From contig JAATFP010000106.1 in assembly GCA_015655125.1 (NCBI GenBank), positions 62,001-126,000 on the forward strand: 64,000 bases of DNA, read 5' to 3'. Positions 5,435 through 50,703 of the stretch are shown piece after piece. How positions within the stretch are numbered: the first letter of the stretch is position 1; every line of letters begins with the position of its first letter. A program made the translations under genes and the position numbers. The DNA is from Chitinophagales bacterium (GTDB lineage Bacteria > Bacteroidota > Bacteroidia > Chitinophagales > Chitinophagaceae). The notes below the pieces were generated by a model, which was given only the letters and a program-made list of their open reading frames with translations, was not told the DNA's origin and searched no databases.

Positions 5435-5485
5435 ATTTGGGTTGACATCCTTGGGTTGACATCCCCAAGGGATGTCAACCCAAAT
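5435..5485. repeat. GGGTTGACATCC hairpin with duplicated left arm
   Basis: TTGGGTTGACATCCC at 5451-5465 and GGGATGTCAACCCAA at 5469-5483 form a perfect 15-bp stem with a CAA loop. A second copy of the left arm, ATTTGGGTTGACATCC at 5435-5450, can pair with the same right arm (5470-5485), so two mutually exclusive hairpins are possible. It lies between the divergent pyrD and thiolase genes and belongs to the same word family as 45186-45266, 49648-49696 and 63528-63559. Confidence 0.75.
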
Positions 5486-44281: not shown

Positions 44282-44470
44282 ATAAATAATGCATTCGGGC
44301 TGGTAAATAGAACAAACGTTGAAATTCAAAGCCTATAGAAAGTGAGGTAGTAATTTTTAAAGCGGTTTGTAGTTTTGTTTCTAAAAATACTGCAGTTTTC
44401 CACAAAGAGAGTTGTTTGGCATAGTATTGGCAAATTAGTCAACGCAAACAATTCAGATTATTCTATAAAA

Positions 44471-44941
44471 ATGAAACGTATGAAAAATGCTCTTTTGATA
44501 CTGTGTGCGGGGCTTATGTTAAGCGTCTCTGCACAGGCACAAACGAAAAAGAAAAAAGTAGCTGAACCAAAATTGAGCGTACCTGAAAATATAAATGCAT
44601 CTTTTGCCAGCCAGAATGCCGGTGTGGAAAACAGCAAGTGGAGCAAAAATTATACTGGAAATTATGTTGCCAGTTTTACGAATGCTTCCAGTCTTCAGCA
44701 AAGCGCCGAGTACAATGCAAAAGGTGATTTGGTAAAAACTACCACTATATATGATATAAACGCGTTGCCGGCAAATATCACTACTGCTTTGCAACCAGGT
44801 TATGCTGATGCGAAAGTTACGGAGGCAAGCAAAGTGGAAGTTCCGGGTGTTGCTCCTTTTTACAAAGTGAAAGTGGAAGTGGGAGAAAATAAAAAACAAA
44901 AACAATTACTGATTTCTGAAGAAGGATCAGTTACAGAATAA
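44471..44941 (+). CDS. Secreted PepSY-like domain protein
   Basis: A small periplasmic or surface protein of 156 residues. A signal peptide (NALLILCAGLMLSVSAQAQ) is followed by a lysine-rich linker and one domain with FASQNAGVENSKWSKNYTGN and PANITTALQPGYADAKVTEA, then FYKVKVEVGENKKQKQLLIS, the outline of the PepSY-like (BLIP-fold) periplasmic family. Function unknown; such proteins are abundant in Bacteroidota. I start at 44471; upstream Met codons in the frame add non-signal residues. A hairpin terminator lies at 45126-45155. Confidence 0.78.
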   Translation: MKRMKNALLILCAGLMLSVSAQAQTKKKKVAEPKLSVPENINASFASQNAGVENSKWSKNYTGNYVASFTNASSLQQSAEYNAKGDLVKTTTIYDINALPANITTALQPGYADAKVTEASKVEVPGVAPFYKVKVEVGENKKQKQLLISEEGSVTE

Positions 44942-45185: not shown

Positions 45186-45266
45186 GGGATGTCAACCCTT
45201 CGGGATATCAACCCTTCGGGATATCAACCCTTCGGGATGTCAACCCTTCTGGATGTCAACCCTTTT
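45186..45266. repeat. Five tandem 16-bp GGGATGTCAACCCTTC units
   Basis: Units start at 45186, 45202, 45218, 45234 and 45250. Units 1 and 4 read GGGATGTCAACCCTTC, units 2 and 3 GGGATATCAACCCTTC, and unit 5 TGGATGTCAACCCTTT. The array ends four bases before the stop codon of the di-haem gene (45270, minus strand). Every unit has the word that forms hairpins elsewhere in the window. Without unique spacers, it is not a CRISPR array. Confidence 0.85.
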
Positions 45267-45269
45267 CGC

Positions 45270-46658
45270 TTACAAAGATTTTATAAACTTCACCAGTGCC
45301 TTCCTATCAGAGGTACTCAATTCTTTGAATTTGTTCTTAGACGTTTCCGCTTCGCCTCCGTGCCATAAGATGGCTTCCTCAATGGTTCTTGCACGGCCAT
45401 CGTGCAGGTAAAATGGGGTGCCATTCGTCCTTTCAAACAAGCCGATGCCCCATAAGGCAGGCGTCTTCCATTCGCTGCCTGTAGCCAGAAAATCCGGGCG
45501 GTTATCAGCAAGGCCGGCCCCCATGTCGTGCAACAAAAGATCGGTATACGGATGGATCCGCTGATTGCTCAGCTGAGGAAATGTGACATCCACACCCGTT
45601 TGTACCGTTGGCAAATGGCAACTGCTGCAATTGATCTGTTTGAATATCTGTTCGCCCGAAATATTTACGGGGTCAAGCACATTGCGGCGCGCCGGCACAG
45701 CCAGGCTCTTGATATAAAAAGCCACACCATTCAATACACTATCCTGTAACTCGGTATCGTCGTTCCTGTTGTCATACTGTGGCTGTCCAAAACTGCTTTC
45801 GGTAGGGAAGAGATAATTAGTAACACCCATGTCCTGGCTGTAAGCCGCAGCAACCTGCGTAAGTATTGTTGCTGTGTTTGCTTTCATTCCAAAGCGACCG
45901 ATCATTGTTTTATTCAAATACGCATCCCATACGTAATTTGCCTTGCCGCTGATACCATCGCCGTCGCTGTCGGTTTCATCCGCGTGCGAAAGGATCGTTG
46001 TTTCAGAAATGTTTTGCAAAAGACCAAGGCCGAAAAACGGCGGGGCCATGCGCGGACTAAAAAGATACGTGCCGGGCAAAGGCGTGTAAGGATTATTGAT
46101 CGTGTAAGCAGGAACCCGTAGCGTAACTATTTCGCCATCGGGAAAAGTAATTATCTGGTTGCTGTAACTGATCGCAACTTTTGCTTCCGGCGTTACGCCG
46201 AAAGTGGCGAGGTCCTGCAATTGCAAACCAAATCCCGGAACCGGTAACGGCCCTCCATGTGCATCTGTGCCAAGAATGCTTAGTCTGAACAGCATAGATG
46301 AATTAACGAACCCGCTTGTTGGACTACCTTTTCCGTCATTGTGATGACAACTGATGCAGCTTACATTGCTAAAAACCGGCCCGAGACCGCTGTTTACAGG
46401 TGCAGGTGCGGTTACGAATGTTTGTTCAACGGAACGGTCACCTACTTCATGCGCATGAATATCGGCCTCATTCATGCCGTCGATTTCATGACCAAATGCC
46501 CGTGAAGTTTCATCGAATACCGTTGCGAGACCGCCGGATAAACGCGGGTCATATTGGGTTTCGTCAAATTGATCTGCCTTGCGGCACATCATTAGAAATA
46601 CCGGAAGGCACAGCAATGCTGTTACTATGTAAACTTTCCGAATTTTTATTTTAGTCAT
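45270..46658 (-). CDS. Di-haem c-type cytochrome lipoprotein (DUF1111)
   Basis: Secreted cytochrome of the DUF1111 (di-haem thiol oxidoreductase) family, 462 residues. Two haem c motifs: CISCH at 101-105 and CSSCH at 344-348, in the order typical of the family, with partners such as the distal Met/His not identified. A lipoprotein signal ends at Cys25 (PVFLMMC), so it is anchored in the membrane. I start at 46658 because upstream residues MFRMAMFVHT derive from an intergenic hairpin. Last gene of a four-gene unit porin-Rieske-imelysin-cytochrome; imelysin/DUF1111 pairs recur in other bacteria. Probable role: iron or haem-linked redox at the cell envelope. Confidence 0.87.
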   Translation of the reverse strand: MTKIKIRKVYIVTALLCLPVFLMMCRKADQFDETQYDPRLSGGLATVFDETSRAFGHEIDGMNEADIHAHEVGDRSVEQTFVTAPAPVNSGLGPVFSNVSCISCHHNDGKGSPTSGFVNSSMLFRLSILGTDAHGGPLPVPGFGLQLQDLATFGVTPEAKVAISYSNQIITFPDGEIVTLRVPAYTINNPYTPLPGTYLFSPRMAPPFFGLGLLQNISETTILSHADETDSDGDGISGKANYVWDAYLNKTMIGRFGMKANTATILTQVAAAYSQDMGVTNYLFPTESSFGQPQYDNRNDDTELQDSVLNGVAFYIKSLAVPARRNVLDPVNISGEQIFKQINCSSCHLPTVQTGVDVTFPQLSNQRIHPYTDLLLHDMGAGLADNRPDFLATGSEWKTPALWGIGLFERTNGTPFYLHDGRARTIEEAILWHGGEAETSKNKFKELSTSDRKALVKFIKSL

Positions 46659-46670
46659 TGTATGTACGAA

Positions 46671-46709
46671 CATTGCCATCCGAAACATGATCTGCTCCGG
46701 ATGGCAATG
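46671..46709. repeat. 12-bp perfect hairpin within the operon
   Basis: CATTGCCATCCG (46671-46682) and CGGATGGCAATG (46698-46709) form a perfect 12-bp stem with a 15-base loop, between the imelysin gene and the di-haem gene, and 12 bases before the latter's ATG. No T-run follows, so a terminator is unlikely; RNA processing or translation control is possible. Confidence 0.75.
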
Positions 46710-46732
46710 TAAATTTTTTTGTTGATCAGAGC

Positions 46733-47827
46733 TTAGTCAGTTACCTGAGCGATGATGAACGGTTTCAATTTAGTGTCAAGCGTGTTTGCGAGATCATTTA
46801 TTGCGGTCATTGTAGCAAGACATTGCGAACGTTGGCTCACAATAGCCTGCTCGTAAGGAACCGTGATGTTGCTGAAGGAATTGATAGCTGCATCAAACTT
46901 TTGCTCGATCTCTGAATTCAATGCGCTGTTTCTTGCTTTAACAAGATCCTGCAAGCCTGTGCCATCGTCATTGAATTTTCCCTGATAAGAGTTGTACGCA
47001 CCGATGATGTTGTTTTTAAAATCGATGGCAGAATTTCCGCTGAATGGAGATTCTACAAGCTGCGCACCTTCCGTTGGATTAGTGAGTGCCGCATCATATG
47101 GTTCCTTCATTTTACCATCGCCCACTTCACCACAGATACCTGAAAGTCCTTCATAGATAGCAAGGAACGCATCCTGTTTTTTTTCAAAAACAGTACTGCC
47201 TGTACCGGCTTTTAAAAACTTGTCAGCGTAATTCAACCCGCTTGGTGCCCAATCGTTGTACAAGGCATCTGCCTGAGATTTCAAGTGTAAAGAAAGTCCG
47301 GTCAGGTACTCTTTTTGGCGCGTCGTAAACTCGGCTGCTGTTTTGATGCCGGTCTGACCCCACAACATATATTCGATCGGGTGATAACCTTTCAGTGAAC
47401 GGTCATTTAGCGCCTCAATGTCAGCTACGGTGCCTAATGGCTGGGCTGTTGCGAGCAACGCATCCATATCGTTGAAATTTACCGGCCATGTATCGGTGTC
47501 AGGATCGTATTCGCCATCTTCAACCGGTCCAAAAAGAAAACCTTCCGTTCTTTCCCACGTGGTACGCAAATCTTTCCAGGCATTTTTTGCAGTGGTAAGA
47601 TTTGCATCAGTTGTACTTGCATTCAGTGCGACAACTGCGTTATTCAAGGCAGTTGCTTTTGTTTGCAATTCTGCGTATCCCGGAAGCGCCACTTTGCTTA
47701 CAAAGTCGGTAATGGCACCGGTTTTAGCTGTTTCAAACTCAACATTCGGGGTAGTGTTGTCATCGTCTTTGGAACAACTCGCAAAAACGGTTGCTGCCAT
47801 CAGGGCAGGAAGCAATAATTTTTTCAT
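46733..47827 (-). CDS. Imelysin family lipoprotein
   Basis: Imelysin (peptidase M75/ICMP) domain protein, 364 residues, iron-regulated or iron-uptake-related in several bacteria. The lipobox is FASC at Cys18. The core GxHxxE motif, GYHPIEYML, spans 147-155 (His149, Glu152) and is required for metal binding in the family. WERTEGFLFGPVEDGEYDPD and TDTWPVNFND are also typical of the family. It follows the Rieske gene by 15 bases and precedes the di-haem gene by about 75. Confidence 0.93.
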   Translation of the reverse strand: MKKLLLPALMAATVFASCSKDDDNTTPNVEFETAKTGAITDFVSKVALPGYAELQTKATALNNAVVALNASTTDANLTTAKNAWKDLRTTWERTEGFLFGPVEDGEYDPDTDTWPVNFNDMDALLATAQPLGTVADIEALNDRSLKGYHPIEYMLWGQTGIKTAAEFTTRQKEYLTGLSLHLKSQADALYNDWAPSGLNYADKFLKAGTGSTVFEKKQDAFLAIYEGLSGICGEVGDGKMKEPYDAALTNPTEGAQLVESPFSGNSAIDFKNNIIGAYNSYQGKFNDDGTGLQDLVKARNSALNSEIEQKFDAAINSFSNITVPYEQAIVSQRSQCLATMTAINDLANTLDTKLKPFIIAQVTD

Positions 47828-47842
47828 AAAAGTTATTTTTTT

Positions 47843-48274
47843 TTACAGGTATATTAATAAATGATCATTGAGTGTTTCTGTTTTCAATTGCCGGAGATTT
47901 CGCTCTGCGGGTCCTTTTGTTACGACTCCGTCTTTTGAAAATTTACTGCCATGCAAAGAACATGTGTAACCATTTCCGGTAGGTGTTAATTGGTTATCGT
48001 AGTGTGTGCATTTCAGGAGCAAAGCCTTGTAAGTATTCTCCGCTTTTTCAACTGAAATTTCGTATTCATATTTCGCCGGGGAAATGACCACCAACGGTTG
48101 TTTTTCAAACAATGTGAACGGCACTTCTACCTGGTTATTCACCACAGCCGGACTATAGGCCAACTGCCTGGCAACAGCCGGGCTACACGATGACAAACTA
48201 TCCGCTACCGCTAATGCGCCGGCACCCATCAGGCAAGCTCTGCAAGCCGTTTTTAAGAATGATCTGCGTTCCAT
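47843..48274 (-). CDS. Tat-exported Rieske [2Fe-2S] lipoprotein
   Basis: A 143-residue Rieske protein. The N-terminus MERRSFLKTAC has the twin-arginine motif, and the hydrophobic stretch ends at the lipobox SLSSC (Cys30). The cluster ligands are Cys89 and His91 in KCTHYD, and Cys105 and His108 in CSLHG, the standard spacing. Export with an assembled cluster would fit Tat. The start at 48274 is used because the frame extended to 48304 would run into the porin gene. It lies ten bases after the porin stop. Predicted electron carrier in the periplasm, with no obvious cytochrome b partner. Confidence 0.9.
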   Translation of the reverse strand: MERRSFLKTACRACLMGAGALAVADSLSSCSPAVARQLAYSPAVVNNQVEVPFTLFEKQPLVVISPAKYEYEISVEKAENTYKALLLKCTHYDNQLTPTGNGYTCSLHGSKFSKDGVVTKGPAERNLRQLKTETLNDHLLIYL

Positions 48275-48284
48275 GGTTTCGTTT

Positions 48285-49520
48285 TTAAAAAGAATAACCG
48301 ACACCTATATTCAAGAACTGGTTGTTTTGACGATAGGGCAACCTCACCGGACTTGGATTGATGACCAGTGCCGGATTTTCTGCGCCAGTGTGCAATAATC
48401 TCACATCTGCTTTTATCACCACATTTCTGATAGGCAGGTATGAAAATCCAATAATAAGATGCTCTTGTTTTTCTGTTCCGTCGTAGATGCCGTTGGCCGG
48501 AATTTTTGAATTCAGGTCCAGCATTTCCAGTCTGCTGAAAAGATTCAATTGCTGCTCTTTCATTTTTTCACTGTGCTCAAAGAGGTTGTATGAAACTTCT
48601 GCATACGCGCCATACATGGCGGTGGCGGTGTTATTTGCGTAAGTTTTATTAATATCGGAAGCATCCGGGAAAGAGATGTAGGCGCCCATTACCTTGGCGC
48701 TGATGCCATTTTTTGCCCATTGAATATTTGCTTCACCGAGGTATATCGGCAGGGCAAAAAATCCGGACTCAATATTCAGGCTGTCGCTTGCTCTTTTATT
48801 CAAACCGTTGGTTCCACCTGCATAACCGGACACCTGGAAGGTAAAATCTTTATAATAGTATTGAATCGCGCCGGTGATGGCCAGTGCGTTGGCATTGGCG
48901 TCGCTGCCCTCAAAACGCCCTTCGCGAATGCCCGTTCCGTGTACGAATGCGGAAGAATTCAATCCGTTGAAGAGGGCAATGCTGTAGTTGAGCGGAAGTT
49001 TTTTGGAGCGCCCGTAAAATCCCACGCCCAATTCGCGCCAGGTAGAAGGGATGATTACCTGTTCAACGATAGGCCTTTCTACGCCGTTGAAATTTACAGG
49101 CAAATGACTTTCATTGATCAGCCCGATGCGTGGCAGGAAAAGCCCTGCGGTAATATATTGATGCGAATTAAGATTGAATTTAAGATAAGCCTGTTCCATT
49201 GAGATCTCGCCATTGCCGCTGCCGGTAACTTTTGCATTCTCGATTTCCATTTCCGAGAAGAAGGCAATTTTTGAATTAAACTGGTGCCCTACAAAAAGCA
49301 CTACGCGTTCAAGATTGATAGATGACCGTTTGTCAACAAAATTGCGTTGATAGAAGGCGCTTCCGTAACCAGAAATAACTGTTTTTGAACTGTGGGCTCC
49401 GGCATTGAGCGAATCTTCATTGGTGAGCAACAACTGCTGTGCGGGCGTACGAACCTGTGCTTTTGAAACAAGGAAAAACAAACTGAAGATTACCGAAAGG
49501 GCCGAAGCAGTATTTTTCAT
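48285..49520 (-). CDS. Outer-membrane porin-like beta-barrel protein
   Basis: A 411-residue secreted protein with a signal peptide (VIFSLFFLVSKAQ) and a body of alternating strands: VISGYGSAFYQRNFV, VLFVGHQFNSKIAFFSEMEI, AYLKFNLNSHQYITAGLFLPRIG, and a closing NQFLNIGVGYSF. It resembles phosphate-selective porin or other 16-strand barrels; identity at family level is uncertain. First gene of the Rieske-imelysin-cytochrome unit. A near-consensus -7 box (GACATTTG, one mismatch) lies five bases before the start. Passage of iron complexes is a guess from context. Confidence 0.77.
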   Translation of the reverse strand: MKNTASALSVIFSLFFLVSKAQVRTPAQQLLLTNEDSLNAGAHSSKTVISGYGSAFYQRNFVDKRSSINLERVVLFVGHQFNSKIAFFSEMEIENAKVTGSGNGEISMEQAYLKFNLNSHQYITAGLFLPRIGLINESHLPVNFNGVERPIVEQVIIPSTWRELGVGFYGRSKKLPLNYSIALFNGLNSSAFVHGTGIREGRFEGSDANANALAITGAIQYYYKDFTFQVSGYAGGTNGLNKRASDSLNIESGFFALPIYLGEANIQWAKNGISAKVMGAYISFPDASDINKTYANNTATAMYGAYAEVSYNLFEHSEKMKEQQLNLFSRLEMLDLNSKIPANGIYDGTEKQEHLIIGFSYLPIRNVVIKADVRLLHTGAENPALVINPSPVRLPYRQNNQFLNIGVGYSF

Positions 49521-49647
49521 GGCGCAAATGTCAGGGAAGGGCGGCTCCGTCGTTTTCGTTATCGGGAAAAAGAAATGGATATGCGGAAAAATGCGCGTGG
49601 ATTGTCAGAGCAGTGTAAAAATGAGATAAAAACGATACGGAATGATG

Positions 49648-49696
49648 TTTTTCTTCCGGGTTGTCAACCCTGTGGGTTGACAACCCGGAAGAAAAA
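49648..49696. repeat. Perfect 23-bp palindrome of the GGGTTGACAACCC family
   Basis: Left arm at 49648-49670 (TTTTTCTTCCGGGTTGTCAACCC with its right arm at 49674-49696) and a TGT loop give a perfect 23-bp stem. The arms end in A/T runs, so it may be a bidirectional terminator. It lies between the AraC-type regulator gene and the porin gene. Confidence 0.85.
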
Positions 49697-49716
49697 CAAA
49701 TGCTGACAGCACCACC

Positions 49717-50658
49717 CTAGTGGATCAGCAACTCACAAGGCTTGATACCTGTATGCTTTTTAAATGCTGTACTGAAATGAGAGATGTAAGAATACCCCAA
49801 CAGCAAAGACACTTCCGTTACGCTCAACCCCTTATCATACAACAGATATTTTGCGTGTTCCATGCGTTGACTCTGGTAAAAATCGAAAATTGTAGTTCCG
49901 AAAATTTCCTTGAACCCCTTCTTCAGATAGCATTCGTTGATTGCCACCTTCCTGCTGAGAGCCTTGATGGTAATGGGTTCGCCGATATGTTGCAGTAATA
50001 TTTCCCTTGCCTTGATGATCTTTTCCCTGTCGGCTTCATTTGCCAGGAACTTACAGGTGAAAGTACTTTCAATCTTTTCGCCCAACATACAATCCATGCT
50101 GTAAAGCAACAGGATCTGCGTTTGTGCATTCACGAAAATATTGGCTAAAGTATCTGTATAATTATGATTAAGTAAAGCTTCTATCGCCATCCGGGTTTTA
50201 CCGCACAAGGGCAACATCTTGCTGAATGAACTGGTATGTTTGAAAGCCAGCACATTGTCTGTAAGGCTCGATGGAGAATGGTTTGCTTTCGCAAACTGGT
50301 TGAGGTAGTTGGCCGAAAAACTAAAACTCAAAACATCCACGCTATCAACTTTTTCTATGCACGTCTTGCTTTTGTTCAGTTTGCAATAATCGCATTCAGT
50401 GGCTTTTTCGCGGCAATACACATTTCCGCTAACGCAAAAGCGAAGTTCCAGATAGTTTTGCTCCGGAGCATTTTTGACATAATGATACACCAAAACACCG
50501 GTATCCTCGATGGCCCATTGCGGCTGTTTCTTATATCGGGTAATTCCATAACGGACAGACCCGGGTACATTGCGGACGATCTCCTGAAGGGTTTCTACTT
50601 CTTCATGCATGAACGGCTGCTTGTGTGCCAACGATAATATGCTGAGTGGTTGATACAT
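49717..50658 (-). CDS. AraC-family regulator with N-terminal cysteine cluster
   Basis: A 313-residue transcription factor. The C-terminal AraC double helix-turn-helix is clear: IKALSRKVAINECYLKKGFK, GTTIFDFYQSQRMEHAKYLL and VTEVSLLLGYSYISHFSTAF. The N-terminal sensor part holds five cysteines between 75 and 100: C75, C82, C89, C92 and C100, in the pattern C-x6-C-x6-C-x2-C-x7-C (stretch around ECDYCKLNKSKTC). This suggests an Fe-S cluster, zinc or a redox sensor. Promoter TTG-N19-TATATTTG at 50674-50703 supports the start at 50658 over an upstream frame end. Encoded on the same strand just before the porin unit, and divergent from gyrB. Confidence 0.88.
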   Translation of the reverse strand: MYQPLSILSLAHKQPFMHEEVETLQEIVRNVPGSVRYGITRYKKQPQWAIEDTGVLVYHYVKNAPEQNYLELRFCVSGNVYCREKATECDYCKLNKSKTCIEKVDSVDVLSFSFSANYLNQFAKANHSPSSLTDNVLAFKHTSSFSKMLPLCGKTRMAIEALLNHNYTDTLANIFVNAQTQILLLYSMDCMLGEKIESTFTCKFLANEADREKIIKAREILLQHIGEPITIKALSRKVAINECYLKKGFKEIFGTTIFDFYQSQRMEHAKYLLYDKGLSVTEVSLLLGYSYISHFSTAFKKHTGIKPCELLIH

Positions 50659-50673
50659 TGAAAAATTTCGATG

Positions 50674-50703
50674 CAAATATACAACATACATTTGAATAAT
50701 CAA
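50674..50703 (-). promoter_or_regulatory. Promoter of the AraC-type regulator gene
   Basis: TTG (50701-50703), a 19-base spacer and TATATTTG (50674-50681) on the minus strand: an exact consensus promoter. The box ends 15 bases before the ATG at 50658, which decides the start codon of the gene. Confidence 0.75.

Follow-up and report, generated by a model that had tools for sequence, protein, structure and literature searches.

Gene organization of the locus

The window analysed here is a 64,000-nucleotide stretch of a Chitinophagales genome (family Chitinophagaceae; contig JAATFP010000106.1, positions 62,001 to 126,000), and this study concerns a minus-strand locus within it, 45270-50703, that carries genes for an AraC-family regulator, an outer-membrane porin, a Rieske protein, an imelysin and a di-haem DHOR/DUF1111 protein, in that order. 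A reading of the DNA from its letters alone (hereafter the sequence-only reading) had grouped these five same-strand genes into one envelope redox/iron module. Translations and Pfam matches bear out all five genes and their order, and the last four form a tight operon (45270-49520). The features, listed with their supporting evidence, are:

49717..50658, minus strand: AraC-family regulator with a five-cysteine cluster (Pfam HTH_18; cysteine alignment; relatives in the family)
49646..49698, minus strand: strong, terminator-like hairpin separating AraC from the operon (fold energy)
49552..49571, minus strand: putative AraC operator TTTTTCCCGATAACGAAAAC (motif search and scans)
48285..49520, minus strand: outer-membrane porin of 411 aa with 16 predicted strands (PF07396; structure model; Foldseek porin matches)
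47843..48274, minus strand: twin-arginine (Tat)-type Rieske [2Fe-2S] lipoprotein (PF00355; CxH..CxxH ligands; RR motif)
46733..47827, minus strand: imelysin lipoprotein with GYHPIE and an N-terminus, C-S-K-D-D-D, like a surface-export signal (PF09375; signal form)
45270..46658, minus strand: DHOR/DUF1111 di-haem lipoprotein with two CxxCH motifs (PF06537; CxxCH alignment)
45186..45264, no strand: 16-bp tandem repeat, 4.9 copies, directly past the operon end (Tandem Repeats Finder)
44375..44941, plus strand: PepSY-like flanking gene, convergent with the operon (PF11396 below cut-off; cluster c22)

Gene starts were revised by reading frame and comparison with relatives, giving ATG 48274 for Rieske, ATG 47827 for imelysin, ATG 46658 rather than 46688 for DHOR and ATG 50658 rather than TTG 50703 for AraC. 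The porin stop and the Rieske start are separated by 10 bp and Rieske and imelysin by 15 bp, in agreement with the 10-15-base gaps noted previously for this part; the imelysin-DHOR gap is 44 bp with the listed start and 74 bp with the likely one. The gap between AraC and the porin measures 196 bp and holds the hairpin, followed by the putative operator. The hairpin is 53 nt long and near-perfect, and the 76-nt piece 49640-49715 folds at -48.1 kcal/mol (z -9.33). Because this gap contains so strong a hairpin, the five genes probably constitute two transcription units, the four-gene operon and a neighbouring AraC gene. A sequence resembling the GGGTTGACATCCCGAA unit builds the hairpin; that unit also forms the tandem repeat at 45186-45264 and recurs at a distant window site, 5453-5475.

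A conserved four-gene operon and its variants

In a sample of 195 family genomes, we typed the surroundings of all 79 non-window Rieske matches with hidden Markov models. Counting the window's own genome, 80 Rieske matches occur in 75 of the 195 genomes. The porin-Rieske-imelysin-DHOR order of the window (type A) accounts for 37 of the 80, the window included, and a DHOR-Rieske-porin order without imelysin (type B) for 23; a further 12 lie in unrelated settings, and one locus (L044) is cut by its contig. The four-gene order recurs in dozens of genomes at roughly 35-78% protein identity, so the arrangement is not a chance one. Both layouts occur together in genomes G028 and G089. The window, L032 and L034 (type A) and L069 (type B) have a common site, flanked by gyrB and AraC on one side and a PepSY-like gene and ileS on the other, at which types A and B look as if they had been swapped.

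Across 296 genomes of the wider phylum, imelysin was found in 71 and a DHOR match in 51. Tallied over 55 DHOR matches (smaller pieces of the same frames omitted) against the top 48 Rieske matches and 39 of the imelysin matches, 29 DHOR genes adjoin Rieske only, 19 imelysin only, four both and three neither. We read 40 of these stretches, comprising all 28 outside the family in which DHOR adjoins Rieske, nine of the 19 with imelysin only and the three with neither. The Rieske-linked loci outside the family consist of one type A locus (L136) and 27 type B loci (L137-L163; L146 stops before the porin). Five loci carry porin-imelysin-DHOR without Rieske (L164, L165, L166, L171 and L175), and two carry imelysin-DHOR-imelysin (L168 and L169). 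DHOR thus partners imelysin or Rieske and rarely both, and the window operon combines the two partnerships.

The operon proteins

The four operon proteins each score above the Pfam cut-off of their family. DHOR matches PF06537 with E 2.8e-106 (356.4 bits against a cut-off of 22), and its two CxxCH motifs are invariant in all five alignment rows. Imelysin matches PF09375 with E 3.2e-59 (201.3 bits, cut-off 23.5), its GYHPIE fits the GxHxxE motif, and score and motif together place it in the M75 family. Rieske matches PF00355 with E 7.5e-08 (32.6 bits, cut-off 20.3), with the ligand pattern CxH..CxxH present in 82/82 typed loci, and its translation begins with a twin-arginine RRSFLK followed by an LSSC lipobox. 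The imelysin motif, twin-arginine signal, paired CxxCH and AraC cysteine cluster that had been pointed out before are all read directly in the translations. The porin matches Porin_O_P (PF07396) with E 2e-05 (24.5 bits, cut-off 20.9); its structure model, of modest confidence (predicted local distance difference test score, pLDDT, 55.2; predicted template modelling score, pTM, 0.60), has 16 strands counted by eye, and its Foldseek matches are porins. The DHOR model was unusable (mean pLDDT 34.5), and a sequence search for a solved DHOR relative returned nothing useful, its one match (E 0.005) being to a cytochrome c555 construct.

The window Rieske is not a bc1/b6f subunit, scoring 29.2 bits against an equivalog cut-off of 97.4, and the disulphide cysteine pattern of bc1/b6f Rieske proteins occurs in 0/70 operon-type Rieske proteins. 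Nor does the operon belong to the EfeUOB systems: the EfeO score is 28.1 bits against a cut-off of 270, and no permease is found among the operon genes. MtrAB-type porin-cytochrome conduits consist of a large barrel with a multihaem cytochrome plug. The window resembles them in having an outer-membrane barrel with a redox partner and differs in its predicted 16-strand barrel and its di-haem/Rieske pair; we rejected an MtrAB-type conduit on the grounds that the 16-strand model, at its modest confidence, is too small and that only two haem motifs are present.

A surface-export signal (LES) of the form C-X-K-(D/E)2-X after the lipobox is described for Bacteroidota (PMC5080379). The window imelysin, with CSKDDDN, fits this form. 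With the lipobox cysteine picked by a rule of our own, lysine occupies position +3 in 34/39 type A imelysins and a D/E pair (one of which may be N) follows in 21/39; in type A DHOR, lysine is at +3 in 37/38 but the D/E pair is present in only four, and type A Rieske proteins have neither (0/38). We infer imelysin to lie outside and Rieske inside.

The Tat signal peptide of the operon-type Rieske proteins (window 48200-48274; L032-L120) contains two cysteines, 2-4 residues apart, directly past RRxF. This pair is present in 66/70 operon-type proteins by pattern and in the other four by eye, and in 0/12 unrelated Rieske proteins by pattern. One of the two is invariant in 41/41 aligned Rieske proteins, and the pair is only partly retained across the wider phylum. 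Such a pair is odd in a signal peptide expected to be cleaved off.

Iron-related surroundings of the Rieske/DHOR pair

A divergent gene of the DtxR family, forming one cluster whose representative has iron-dependent-repressor and FeoA domains, accompanies 12/23 family type B loci, and a DtxR-family gene is present in 9/27 type B stretches outside the family. In five loci (L137, L143, L144, L146 and L158), a FeoB_C domain (Pfam) is encoded directly upstream of DHOR. L144 has the order DtxR, DtxR/FeoA protein, FeoB GTPase, FeoB permease, DHOR, Rieske and porin, with ~15 bp between FeoB and DHOR; the FeoB GTPase in the other four was judged by size and sequence. In L163, a DtxR gene and an NRAMP-type transporter gene, the latter including a universal-stress domain, come after DHOR-Rieske-porin.

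The palindrome TTAGACTAGTCTAA before type B DHOR genes resembles the DtxR/IdeR box. Its likelihood score as a motif is 285.6, compared with 41-48 for three shuffled sets; the shuffles here and below are single-base, and the matrices for the DtxR box and the operator were each first scored on their own training regions. A DtxR-like box exceeds the shuffle maximum in 33/49 distinct type B upstream regions and is also found in one type A locus (L111, 23.9 bits). With their DtxR-type boxes and FeoB neighbours, the type B loci tie the Rieske/DHOR pair to iron. The window's own genome has one good FeoB match elsewhere, a 709-aa frame.

The AraC regulator and a candidate operator

The AraC protein matches HTH_18 with E 3.2e-19 (Pfam) and carries a cluster of C90, C97, C104, C107 and C115 in its 328-aa reading, each column holding a cysteine in 25 or 26 of the 26 sequences aligned. 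At E <= 1e-30, 181/195 family genomes have an AraC match, 132 of them at E <= 1e-80 by our count, and the weaker matches are probably paralogues. By coordinates, AraC lies within 11 kb of Rieske in 5/75 Rieske-match genomes and is mostly far from the operon. It stands directly before the operon in L032, L069 and L110 and is separated from it by one or two genes in L034 and L102; the neighbourhood is therefore not peculiar to this strain, a confinement that would have refuted the sequence-only reading. Conserved adjacency does not make AraC an operon member, a status we rejected as AraC is widespread and mostly distant, and for the same reason proximity is not our argument. What stands of the proposed five-gene module is the conserved porin-Rieske-imelysin-DHOR operon, with AraC apparently outside it and not its usual neighbour. 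Judged by eye, the genes behind AraC in L246 (genome G040) encode a cysteine-rich small protein and CusA/CusB-like products, a hint of a role in heavy-metal handling.

A motif search of 46 regions upstream of type A or porin-Rieske loci, with the duplicates L001 (window) and L033 (L108) excluded, yielded TTTTTCCcgATTnCGTAAA-ccgn-TTTCCC, a direct TTTCC repeat at 21 bp (width 26; score 262.7, two shuffled sets giving 80-81). This non-palindromic model is better than a palindrome for the type A motif and replaced it. The window site, 49552-49571, lies 31 bp before the porin ATG, with a further TTTTTCC upstream at 49585-49591, so that the repeats start 20 bp apart. It is the sole match with one mismatch in its own genome; 24 of the 39 pattern matches there were examined for an AraC regulon, and among these the window site alone is a convincing promoter site. 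On rescoring, 26/46 loci, nearly all of which trained the matrix, exceed 15.6, the maximum over 445 null windows of 450 bp each from type A loci, and the window scores 18.5.

Independent tests were provided by a scan upstream of type B operons, 20 AraC neighbourhoods and 36 further ones. In the type B scan (n=50), only L065 (26.5) and L069 (17.7) exceed 15.6, the next score being 8.5. Both belong to the same genus (g65) and have the operator and no DtxR box, and in L069 AraC lies directly upstream of the type B operon. Among the 20 AraC neighbourhoods, seven (G126, G193, G021, G150, G071, G029 and G102) have a site of at least 20 within 700 bp 3' of AraC, G002 has a 3' site of 16.5 in that range, and in G091 and G027 the sites lie 3.5-3.8 kb away; nothing above 15.6 stands at the 3' position in the remaining ten. 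The further set of 40 stretches, less L272, L274 and L292 (AraC not located) and L282 (no 3' sequence), leaves 36, and in six of them the 800 bp searched on the 3' side hold a site above 15.6, no more than 93 bp away in five. As controls, the 5' side gives 1/37 (21.2) and the wrong strand none above 15.6, and over the set the 3' side scores above the 5' side (p 0.024). Overall, the operator occurs 3' of AraC in 13/56 untrained genomes and in 0/445 null windows (Fisher p 1e-13), the stretch scanned next to AraC, 700-800 bp, being longer than a null window.

The genes behind these AraC-side operators, where named, encode TonB-dependent receptors or PepSY_TM proteins; the next gene in G029 has no Pfam match. 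Of the receptors tried, those of L236, L237 and L102 score above the NCBIfam cut-off for siderophore receptors, and the other four, whole or cut, score below it. L102, a member of the training set, has AraC, receptor, PepSY_TM and type A operon in a row, with operators before both the receptor and the porin. The distribution of the motif supports the putative operator as a connection of the cysteine-rich AraC with uptake genes and with the window operon.

Relation to described systems

The nearest described relative is BT2473-BT2482 of Bacteroides thetaiotaomicron, which is induced 63-324-fold under iron limitation (PMC10434189). Like the window, it brings together in a single locus a porin, a thiol oxidoreductase, an M75 peptidase of the imelysin family and an HTH regulator, and going by its name we read the 'thiol oxidoreductase' as a DHOR protein. 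It differs in its CcsA and fimbrillin genes, and the word Rieske is absent from that paper. The Bacteroidales loci L035 and L036 have porin-imelysin-DHOR at ~25-27% identity (37% for one DHOR piece) and no Rieske match. Imelysin next to DUF1111, for which the sequence-only reading pointed to the surroundings of icmP, has indeed long been known (PMC3143127): Pseudomonas PA4370-PA4373 (icmP) and EfeUOB place imelysin beside a DUF1111/EfeB-like di-haem protein, as in the window. The accessible part of that source mentions neither porin nor Rieske for them, and the EfeO cupredoxin-like domain and EfeU permease it describes are absent from the window operon.

In Bizionia argentinensis, expression of siderophore-uptake genes and of the genes for Rieske, cytochrome c and imelysin drops when mliR is deleted (PMC9478572). 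The neighbouring tags of its Rieske (BZARG_RS03005) and cytochrome c (BZARG_RS03000), together with the imelysin, recall the window; the regulator, unlike ours, is MerR-like, and its authors assign the Rieske to complex III. Some PepSY_TM proteins are described as reducing ferric siderophores and others as serving copper supply (PMC12914433 and PMC13038864). Our literature search, which covered combinations of imelysin, DUF1111, Rieske and FeoB/DtxR and saw its sources in part, found no description of the porin-Rieske-DHOR set and no paper pairing peptidase M75 with Rieske.

Proposed function and alternatives

We judge it probable, if far from certain, that the locus is a metal-limitation operon for iron acquisition, controlled by AraC and containing a Rieske/di-haem electron relay. 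Shortage of iron (or possibly copper) would cause the cysteine-rich AraC to activate the operon via the direct TTTCC repeats, which are spaced by 20-21 bp. Imelysin, which probably sits on the cell surface, would bind iron, and the porin would pass small iron species through the outer membrane. In the periplasm, the di-haem protein DHOR and the Rieske lipoprotein, exported by the Tat route, would swap single electrons, shifting the redox state of the iron. Fe(III) reduction, delivering Fe(II) to FeoB, would be the favoured direction because type B sits in a Feo context. The earlier working model of an electron path for iron is supported in part, by an iron-limitation-induced relative, by type B in Feo/DtxR operons and by an operator that links AraC. 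Sequence shows the operon, the operators and their context, and from there we infer the metal sensed by AraC, Rieske-DHOR electron transfer, its direction and the membrane sidedness.

Several observations weigh against this proposal. In seven of the 80 family Rieske loci, one of which (L059) lies at the end of a contig, porin and Rieske occur with neither imelysin nor DHOR, and the window has no DtxR-type box, its best score being 6.1 bits against a shuffle maximum of 14.6. Among type A and porin-Rieske loci, a close AraC relative (at least 45% identity) and presence of the operator are only weakly associated (17/24 against 8/20, Fisher p 0.066); L116, L049, L053 and L043 have the operator without a close AraC, and in L032, where AraC is the neighbouring gene, the score is just 11.3. 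As whole distributions in the further AraC set, the 3' side and the wrong strand do not differ significantly (p 0.37). Pattern matches with up to three mismatches exceed a backward control moderately, at 39 against 25 in the window's own genome and 91 against 63 over 20 genomes, and an intragenic site in that genome scores 17.0, near the 18.5 of the window.

That weak association of operator and close AraC, and the occurrence of AraC in most genomes far from the operon, would suit an AraC that is an unrelated neighbour, the operator being used by another regulator. We hold this to be unlikely, given the operator 3' of AraC in the 13 untrained genomes and given that both g65 type B operons carry the operator and lack the DtxR box. 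If AraC is the regulator, its regulon might instead sense copper, the operon then being a redox system linked to copper, for example a copper-sparing one, and not a true iron-acquisition system. The cysteine cluster, the CusA-like gene and cysteine-rich small protein behind AraC in G040 (by eye) and a Bordetella TonB receptor with PepSY_TM that serve copper (PMC12914433 and PMC13038864) point that way, the Bordetella pair being a further count against iron. The G040 stretch, though, has no site above 15.6 (best 14.8), three of the seven receptors tried pass the siderophore cut-off and type B sits in Feo/DtxR operons, which together make a copper system quite improbable.

A different reading of the DHOR protein, suggested by its Pfam description as a 'putative peroxidase', is that it acts in the manner of EfeB or of the bacterial cytochrome c peroxidases, consuming H2O2 with electrons from Rieske or Fe(II) while imelysin binds Fe(III), so that Fenton damage is averted. 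Type B occurs in Feo operons, where the substrate is Fe(II), and the operon lacks an Ftr1-kind permease, so we find a peroxidase role rather doubtful. Returning to iron acquisition with an electron relay, we advance one extension only tentatively: Rieske, DHOR and porin may form a widespread, undescribed assimilatory iron reductase, in which a Rieske outside the quinol complexes passes electrons to an outer-membrane di-haem protein, Fe(II) going to FeoB in one layout and imelysin being the partner in the other, the layouts replacing one another at a shared chromosomal site next to the same AraC.

Implications

How imelysin-like proteins act in iron transport was called unresolved in PMC3143127. 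The Feo linkage, the two operators and the Rieske partner offer a concrete redox hypothesis for imelysin-type iron transport, and a candidate regulator with a named putative binding site is now available. Some Rieske genes of Bacteroidota regarded as 'respiratory' may, as these findings suggest, belong to iron uptake.

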